Assembly: GCA_000010565.1 (NCBI GenBank)
Contig: AP009389.1
Location: 2,914,001-2,978,000, forward strand
Length of the DNA stretch: 64,000 nucleotides
DNA from: Pelotomaculum thermopropionicum SI
GTDB lineage: Bacteria; Bacillota; Desulfotomaculia; Desulfotomaculales; Pelotomaculaceae
Reading direction: 5' to 3'
Position 1 is the first letter of the stretch, and each line of letters begins with the position of its first letter. The notes beneath the pieces were generated by a model. It worked only from the letters and a program-made list of their open reading frames with translations. It had not been told where the DNA came from and searched no databases. Shown one piece after another: positions 53,055 through 55,027 of this stretch. The position numbers and the translations under genes are program-made.

Positions 53055-54455
53055 TCAAAAGGCATTGCTCTCCGGCCGGCCTGGCGCCGGATGGCGCGCT
53101 TCTTTTTGTGAAAGGACTTCCATAAGCTTGAAGTAAATGGCGCATTCCAGCCTTTTCCGGATCAAGAGGCACTCCCGCCGGTGGGGTTTAAAGATTGAGC
53201 CGTTGAACATTTCGGCGTTGGCATGGCAGCCTCCGCTGCAGTGGAACTTGGCCCAGCAGGCGGCGCAGCCCTCCTTGCTGTAAATGTGGGCCCTGCGGAA
53301 AAGATCCGCCAGAGCGGTATCGAACCTGCCGCAGGTAACATTGCCCATTAAATATTTTTTCCTGCCTACAAACTGGTGGCAGGGGTAGAGGTCCCCGTTG
53401 GGCGCGACGGCCAGGTATTCGCTGCCCGCACCGCAGCCCGACAGGCGTTTCGGCAGGCACGGCCCGCCTTCCAGGTCGATGTTGAAGTGGAAAAAGCTTA
53501 CCGCCCTGCCTGCCTGCCTGAACCGCAGCAACTCCCCGGCCAAGCGCTCGTACTGGGCAAACAGCAGGGGGAGATCCTCGTCACGAAGGGAATAATCTGC
53601 CTCCGCCGGCGCCACCACCGGTTCCACCGAAATATGCTCGAACCCCAGACCGGCCAGGTGCAGCACGTCTTCGCAGAAGTCCAGGTTGCGGCGGGTATAG
53701 GTGCCGCGAATGTAGTAGTTTTTGCCGGCGCGGGAGTCCACAAAGCTTTTAATCCTGGCCAGGGCCAGATCGTAGGAGCCGTTCCCGCCCGGGGCCGGGC
53801 GCATGGCGTCATGTACTTCCCGCCGGCCGTCCAGGCTCAAAACCACGCTGATATTTTCCCGGTTAAGGAAGCCGGCAATTTCGCCGTCTAAAAGAAGGGC
53901 GTTGGTGGTAAGGGTGAACTTAAACTCCTTGCCCTTTTCCCGGCCCAGCCTCCGGCCGTAATCGACCAGTTCCTTTAAAACGGCGAAGTTAAGCAGGGGC
54001 TCGCCGCCGAAAAAATCCACCTCCAGGTGCTTTCGCCTGCCCGAGCGGGCAATTAAAAAATCCAGGGCGGCGCGCCCCACCTCAACCGGCATCAGCTCAT
54101 CCGCCCCGCCAAAGCGGCCCTGCCCGGCAAAGCAGTAGCGGCAGCGCAGGTTGCAGGAATGGGCCAGGTGCAGGCAAAGCGATTTAACAACGCCCTGCCC
54201 CGCAAGGCTGTCCTCCCCGCGGCAGGGGTCGGGGCTGAACAGCCGGCCCTCCCGCTCCAGTTCCCTTATTTCGTCAAGGGCTTCCAAAACATCGGCCGGC
54301 TTGTAGCGGCCCCGGAATTTTCCTATTATTTCCTCTTCCTTCTCCCTGCCGTAAACGTCCAGCAACTCCCAGGCCAGTTCGTCCACCAGGTGAACCGTGC
54401 CGCTGTGCACGTCCAGCACAATTTTCTGCCCGTCAAACTCGAATTTATGAAGCAA
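53055..54455 (-). CDS. scfB: SCIFF peptide maturase, radical SAM/SPASM
   Basis: Forms thioether cross-links in the six-cysteine peptide SCIFF encoded immediately upstream. The 466-residue protein from the TTG at 54455 (seven bases after GGGAGG) has an N-terminal RRE-like region, the radical SAM motif CNLRCRYCFAGQG, and SPASM cysteines in SGCGAGSEYLAVAPNGDLYPC, VTCGRF, CAACWAKFHCSGGC and RREC. The longer reading to 54518 would start inside scfA. Family assignment is strengthened by the adjacent precursor. Confidence 0.95.
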   Translation of the reverse strand: MLHKFEFDGQKIVLDVHSGTVHLVDELAWELLDVYGREKEEEIIGKFRGRYKPADVLEALDEIRELEREGRLFSPDPCRGEDSLAGQGVVKSLCLHLAHSCNLRCRYCFAGQGRFGGADELMPVEVGRAALDFLIARSGRRKHLEVDFFGGEPLLNFAVLKELVDYGRRLGREKGKEFKFTLTTNALLLDGEIAGFLNRENISVVLSLDGRREVHDAMRPAPGGNGSYDLALARIKSFVDSRAGKNYYIRGTYTRRNLDFCEDVLHLAGLGFEHISVEPVVAPAEADYSLRDEDLPLLFAQYERLAGELLRFRQAGRAVSFFHFNIDLEGGPCLPKRLSGCGAGSEYLAVAPNGDLYPCHQFVGRKKYLMGNVTCGRFDTALADLFRRAHIYSKEGCAACWAKFHCSGGCHANAEMFNGSIFKPHRRECLLIRKRLECAIYFKLMEVLSQKEARHPAPGRPESNAF

Positions 54456-54470
54456 GACAAATCCTCCCAA

Positions 54471-54508
54471 AAAGAGAACCTTATCCCGCCGGGGACAAGG
54501 TTCTCTTT
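54471..54508 (-). terminator. Attenuating terminator between scfA and scfB
   Basis: A perfect 12-base-pair stem (54471-54482 with 54497-54508) with a 14-base loop begins at the scfA stop and is followed by TTTTT on the minus strand, only 15 bases before the scfB start. It should give much more precursor than maturase message. Confidence 0.88.
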
Positions 54509-54660
54509 TAATTGGCATTTCCTTTAGCGCAGACCTGATTGCCCACCGTGCAGGAAGTCTTGCAGGCGGACTGGCAGGAGGCCTGGCATTCGCCGCAGCC
54601 GCGGTCTTTTGAAACAGCCGGAATCCGGGTGCTTTTCAACGTTTTGATATGTTTGCCCAA
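54508..54660 (-). CDS. scfA: SCIFF six-cysteine ranthipeptide precursor
   Basis: A 50-residue peptide beginning MGKHIKTLKSTRIPAVSKDR from a TTG at 54660, behind AAAAGGAGGGG. Its second half contains six cysteines (22, 25, 29, 33, 37, 44) within GCGECQASCQSACKTSCTVG, the invariant SCIFF core. In characterised members the maturase links Cys sulfur to the gamma or alpha carbon of an acceptor residue. Biological role in clostridia is still debated (quorum or metabolic control). The TTG start and small size make it easy to miss in annotation. Confidence 0.97.
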   Translation of the reverse strand: MGKHIKTLKSTRIPAVSKDRGCGECQASCQSACKTSCTVGNQVCAKGNAN

Positions 54661-54687
54661 GGCTTCCACCCCTCCTTTTCAAAGTTA

Positions 54688-54717
54688 ATTATAAATGATC
54701 GCAGGAGGCCGATGCAA
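54688..54717 (-). promoter_or_regulatory. Promoter of the SCIFF operon
   Basis: TTGCAT (54712-54717) and perfect TATAAT (54688-54693) on the minus strand, spacing 18, about 20 bases ahead of the ribosome-binding site of scfA. Confidence 0.75.
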
Positions 54718-54742: not shown

Positions 54743-54772
54743 GGTATTTCTACTTTCCCTGGTAGAAATACC
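54743..54772. promoter_or_regulatory. Inverted repeat in the divergent SCIFF / small-protein region
   Basis: GGTATTTCTAC and GTAGAAATACC (11 bases each, perfect) around an eight-base spacer lie between the scfA promoter and the 62-residue gene on the other strand. On the minus strand a T-rich tract follows, so it could be a terminator shielding scfA; as DNA it could be an operator acting on both sides. Confidence 0.6.
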
Positions 54773-54838: not shown

Positions 54839-55027
54839 ATGGCAATATTTAAATTTATTGAAAATATAAAGTTTTATTTTGGCTATATTGTATCGGGCTT
54901 TGCCAACGGGGGAAGCTGGAAGCTGAACAGGATTACCGAATTGTCCGCCCGCGAAACCAGGAGGATTGTGGTCAGAAACAGGTCGACCTTCGAAGAGCTG
55001 TTTTCCCCCAAGGACAGGCCCGTCTGA
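54839..55027 (+). CDS. 62-residue basic protein of unknown function, divergent from scfA
   Basis: I do not recognise this protein. The ATG at 54839 follows AGGTGGTG at normal spacing, which supports a real gene; an open frame upstream to 54695 lacks such a site. The protein has an amphipathic aromatic N-terminal half (FKFIENIKFYFGYIVSGFANGG) that could lie on a membrane, then a charged stretch with NRITELSARETRRIVVRNRS. It is one of few plus-strand genes and shares its upstream region with the SCIFF operon, which suggests linked control but proves nothing. Confidence 0.55.
   Translation: MAIFKFIENIKFYFGYIVSGFANGGSWKLNRITELSARETRRIVVRNRSTFEELFSPKDRPV

Follow-up and report, generated by a model that had tools for sequence, protein, structure and literature searches.

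The SCIFF locus described here lies in a 64,000-nucleotide stretch of the Pelotomaculum thermopropionicum SI genome (the window; positions 2914001-2978000 of the complete 3,025,375-bp sequence) and consists of two genes on the minus strand, one for a 50-residue precursor and one for a radical SAM maturase, which are separated by a gap of 52 nt (Table 1). The precursor scores 76.6 bits against TIGR03973 (NCBI curated cut-off 50) and 78.1 bits against PF13165, the Pfam model of SCIFF (cut-off 27). Its cysteines occupy positions 22, 25, 29, 33, 37, and 44, and the translation, which was compared with 101 relatives, contains both the six cysteines within approximately 45 residues and the core GCGECQxSCQSACKTSCTVGNQ. 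The maturase scores 609.6 bits against TIGR03974 (cut-off 425), contains the Pfam domains Radical_SAM and SPASM with a CxxxCxxC motif at residues 101-108, and aligns over nearly its whole length with CteB, a SCIFF maturase of known structure (PDB 5wgg; E 3e-155, residues 1 to 446 aligned). The gene on the 3′ side of the maturase in the window encodes a LysM/M23 peptidase. Because both proteins exceed the curated cut-offs of their families and the maturase resembles CteB over nearly its whole length, the locus is, as judged from sequence, a regular SCIFF ranthipeptide locus, as the initial annotation had proposed. The same annotation described the precursor as easily missed, which is doubtful and overstated, because standard profile models place it well above the cut-off and TTG start codons are common in this genome.

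Table 1. Features of the SCIFF locus, in coordinates of the window.
Feature	Position	Strand	Basis and remarks
SCIFF precursor CDS	54508..54660	-	TTG start, 50 aa, six Cys; TIGR03973, PF13165; start column conserved (ATG/TTG/GTG) in 101 relatives
SCIFF maturase CDS (radical SAM/SPASM)	53055..54455	-	TTG start, 466 aa; TIGR03974, PDB 5wgg (CteB), CxxxCxxC
Intrinsic-terminator hairpin, proposed attenuator	54471..54508	-	17-bp stem, 4-nt loop, short U-tract; fold, covariation, positional conservation
Shine-Dalgarno AGGAGG of the precursor	54671..54676	-	sequence; 10 nt 5′ of the TTG
Shine-Dalgarno GGGAGG of the maturase	54463..54468	-	sequence; directly behind the U-tract
-35 element TTGCAT	54712..54717	-	3/6 match to TTGACA; in relatives, TTGC recurs
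-10 element TATAAT	54688..54693	-	perfect; spacer 18; exact TATAAT in most relatives with their own promoter
Second terminator-like hairpin	54743..54772	-	11-bp stem followed by TTCGTTTTTT; lies 5′ of the SCIFF promoter

The TTG that had been proposed as the start codon of the precursor is borne out by the AGGAGG ahead of it and by relatives that carry ATG in exactly the TTG column. A mechanical list of open reading frames starts the precursor at GTG 54669 instead (53 aa); this codon overlaps the Shine-Dalgarno region and is out of frame in one relative (locus L025 of G109), and it was rejected. Because of this overlap and of the ATG found at the TTG column in relatives, TTG 54660 is the better prediction of the start. 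The start column is identical in the 101 relatives from the order, with TTG in 44, ATG in 43, and GTG in 14 (TTG or GTG in 58/101). The maturase, too, has a TTG start codon (54455), a point that the initial annotation overlooked; a TTG start is found for 44/90 maturases in the order and for the linked maturase in 14/14 family members that have a linked enzyme. In the wider phylum, the precursor mostly starts at ATG (59/67), and TTG is rare. The idea that the TTG start is a special feature of SCIFF was discarded, given that 14 of 50 genes in the window start at TTG under a crude Shine-Dalgarno rule and that precursors elsewhere in the phylum seldom use this codon. We regard the TTG start as a habit of the lineage.

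SCIFF was detected in 103 of the 113 genomes of the order and in 313 of 398 genomes drawn from the phylum. The cysteines of the homologues, which had been named beforehand as a point on which the assignment could fail, were compared, and most homologues retain six aligned cysteines. In some families one cysteine is replaced (KTSCTV becomes KTSLTV or KTSITV). The fifth core cysteine is Leu or Ile in L046, L053, L059-L061, L063, L068, L057, L067, L070, L077, L078, and L088, loci that belong to families f4, f10, f13, and f16 and whose SCIFF peptides carry only five of the six cysteines. Additionally, the linked maturase of one genome (G052; L126 / L020) appears to be split into several frames, for which a sequencing error is possible, this genome being 72% complete.

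The promoter ahead of the precursor had been called nearly consensus, which holds for the perfect -10 element, whereas the -35 element matches the consensus at only three of six positions; a scan requiring 9 of 12 consensus positions did not list TTGCAT-N18-TATAAT. The form TTGC-N17/18-TATAAT recurs upstream of SCIFF in most relatives from the order that have their own promoter, where the -10 element is usually located 21-38 nt ahead of the precursor start codon. This promoter form is not present in f2, f8, and some other families, where the precursor closely follows an upstream open reading frame. The second terminator-like hairpin, upstream of the promoter, may act as an insulator against transcripts entering from upstream. 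It lies ahead of a small, divergent open reading frame (54839-55027, plus strand), which matched no Pfam or NCBIfam family.

A terminator with a stem of 12 bp had been described at the stop of the precursor. The hairpin is confirmed at this site, ahead of the maturase gene, but its stem comprises 17 bp, including one G-U pair, and the hairpin begins with the final base of the precursor stop codon. The folded stretch has a free energy of -30.5 kcal/mol (z -5.8), and 0/200 shuffled sequences are as stable. An intrinsic-terminator hairpin, the element that characterizes a RiPP attenuator, is therefore present between the precursor and enzyme genes. The U-tract contains only 5 U, which suggests a leaky terminator, and runs directly into the maturase Shine-Dalgarno sequence.

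The comparison of the intergenic terminator across SCIFF loci, which had been recommended with the original description, reveals that it is conserved in position. When one fixed rule was applied only to gaps of 30 nt or more between precursor and maturase, with shuffled gaps for comparison, terminator-like hairpins were found in 70/84 gaps of the order (11% of shuffled gaps) and in 38/56 gaps of the phylum sample (6% of shuffled gaps), the latter being an approximate figure that covers only loci whose maturase start was located by simple alignment. Gaps shorter than 30 nt occur in six loci of the order and one of the phylum sample. A terminator between precursor and maturase thus appears to be a phylum-wide, general feature of SCIFF loci. 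Within the order, recognisably the same hairpin, CC(U/C)(U/G)(G/A)UCC...GGA(U/C)N(A/G)GG, is present in 62/101 loci from eight families, and its pairs covary (A-U/G-C, U-A/C-G, and G-C/A-U), with the three variable positions 100% paired. Outside the order, the position of the hairpin is kept while its sequence is mostly changed. The hairpin is absent from certain lineages in which the gap is very short (f13 and most of f16) and is therefore not essential to the SCIFF system.

The fourth or fifth pair of the hairpin is a wobble or a mismatch in 61 of these 62 loci, and the sole perfect hairpin belongs to a locus with a dead maturase (G094). Such imperfection fits a leaky terminator, and the G094 exception, as one case, is only suggestive. 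Among the phylum hairpins, 10/38 are perfect in the inner 9 bp, so imperfection is not general. The U-tracts at loci with an unlinked maturase are longer when pooled by genome (p 0.02), and this difference vanishes when it is counted by genus (p 0.34); a difference in U-tract length is therefore not claimed, and the idea that the terminator is tuned for leakiness is no more than suggestive.

In four genera of the family to which the window belongs (f1), the precursor and its hairpin are present with no intact maturase behind them: g4 (G091-G093), g5 (G094), g8 (G101), and g9 (G102, G104, and G105). The next gene at these loci encodes a LysM/M23 peptidase, as behind the maturase in the window. 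The hairpin is kept in 8/8 loci that have lost the linked maturase, as expected of a self-standing, terminated precursor unit. In G094 (L032), a relic of the C-terminal part of the maturase (54% identity over 57 aa) remains approximately 70-240 nt behind the SCIFF stop, and the precursor and the terminator are intact. Orphan precursors lacking any maturase can be excluded, since an unlinked TIGR03974 gene occurs in each genome concerned. This second type of SCIFF maturase lies elsewhere in each of these genomes and is approximately 47% identical to that of the window. The eleven unlinked maturases of f1, which start at ATG (L112-L119, L121, L122, and L124, from G105, G094, G101, G092, G093, G102, G100, G091, G106, G107, and G104, respectively), form one clade (SH-aLRT 100) that is nested among other clostridial maturases (98) and stands apart from the linked maturases of f1.

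Two genomes carry both maturase types, G100 (L118 with L111) and G099 (L125 with L123, the unlinked-type copy being a partial gene at a contig end), and these apparently represent an intermediate stage of the displacement. In G106 and G107 the unlinked maturase is present and SCIFF was not detected, perhaps because their assemblies are incomplete. The position of the clade in the tree suggests that the unlinked maturase was horizontally acquired, and the simplest reading is a single acquisition, after which the linked maturase was lost several times. Gene moves or repeated acquisitions are possible, because the gene contexts of the unlinked maturases differ between genera.

With these comparisons in hand, we consider it very likely that the window contains a regular SCIFF locus in which a leaky terminator acts as an attenuator, the maturase is produced by read-through, and the maturase cross-links the precursor. 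A sigma-A-type promoter just upstream would drive the precursor gene, most polymerases would halt at the hairpin behind the precursor stop and leave a short precursor mRNA of approximately 210 nt, and a minority would read through the hairpin and allow expression of the maturase. The promoter scan found no promoter-like site within the locus ahead of the maturase, nor did it find one on the minus strand within the precursor gene. The hairpin and the ribosome-binding site together occupy the 52-nt gap, which leaves no room for a separate promoter. Unless the precursor gene contains a promoter that the scan missed, the maturase would consequently have to rely on read-through. The conserved hairpin would probably yield more peptide than enzyme, and the far greater amount of precursor that the initial annotation envisaged can reasonably be inferred from the terminator.

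The same observations bear on the alternative that the hairpin terminates fully and that the maturase is transcribed from a separate promoter inside the precursor gene, which is unlikely. The stem is indeed very stable, and a homologous hairpin ends a single-gene unit in related genera; however, such a promoter would have to escape the scan, the gap is already taken up, and the U-tract of only 5 U suggests leakiness. Translation-coupled attenuation, in which a ribosome at the precursor stop would cover the 5′ arm of the hairpin and let the polymerase pass, so that the maturase would follow precursor translation, is very unlikely: the stem core does lie only 2-7 nt behind the stop codon in f1, but this spacing varies between families, f7 having 12-22 nt and f9 33-35 nt, and some rpmB terminators of the order are also located right at the stop codon, so that the closeness is ordinary. 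It is highly improbable that the hairpin represents a dedicated RNA element that has a ligand or protein partner of its own and a sequence conserved for recognition, given that, although its core CCU(U/G)(G/A)UCCC...GGGA(U/C)NAGG recurs in eight families and the motif is found once in the genome, its sequence mostly differs outside the order while its position stays, an Rfam search returned only chance matches with no family at the threshold, and rpmB terminators from matched families of the order are likewise conserved (stem identity reaches 80% or more in 57% of cross-family pairs, compared with 74% for SCIFF and 1% for the unrelated pairs of SCIFF with rpmB). Since the rpmB terminators are also conserved in sequence, the conservation of the SCIFF hairpin needs no special function, and a special element is needless.

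Read as a regular SCIFF locus with a leaky terminator, the locus resembles known systems closely. CteA/CteB of Clostridium thermocellum and Tte1186a of Caldanaerobacter subterraneus share with it the six cysteines in approximately 45 residues, the adjacent radical SAM/SPASM maturase, and the conserved Cys, along with Thr residues at positions +2 and +5 relative to the fourth cysteine; there is no essential difference, except that both genes here start at TTG and that the leader and tail sequences differ. By homology with CteA, the maturase would form a Cys-Thr thioether, the non-alpha cross-link that marks a ranthipeptide, from the fourth cysteine, Cys33, to Thr35 or Thr38, all of which are present in the precursor. 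The chemistry of SCIFF has been described, and the two published thioether assignments for CteA disagree (PMC8326336). Terminators that dampen expression behind RiPP precursor genes have been documented in general, so an attenuating terminator at this position is, as a principle, already known (PMC7113386). Such operons, for example that of bottromycin with a putative terminator between btmD and btmE, have the same arrangement of precursor gene, imperfect terminator, and downstream modifying enzyme (PMC7113386). Here, by contrast, a single enzyme gene lies behind the terminator, the position of which is broadly conserved throughout the phylum.

The locus is therefore of an ordinary, already known kind, a standard SCIFF locus with a terminator general to such loci, and represents one more member of a family that most of the searched genomes of the phylum contain. 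To our knowledge, the biological role of SCIFF peptides is still poorly known; a role in the quorum sensing of solventogenic clostridia has reportedly been observed. A literature search found no description of the intergenic SCIFF terminator or of unlinked SCIFF maturases, and the loss of the maturase with its unlinked replacement in four genera of the same family is new. The useful additions are thus comparative, namely the phylum-wide terminator and the relatives in which the enzyme has been swapped while the precursor and terminator are kept. We lean toward a reading in which the precursor is a self-standing gene, selection acts on the leak of its terminator, and enzyme and substrate can be separated, such that the linked maturase has been lost repeatedly and the horizontally acquired, unlinked clade would modify the precursor in trans. 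Of all the results, the maturase displacement seen in sister genera is the most interesting, and the swap offers a natural test both of the need for gene linkage in SCIFF modification and of the extent to which its maturases can replace one another.
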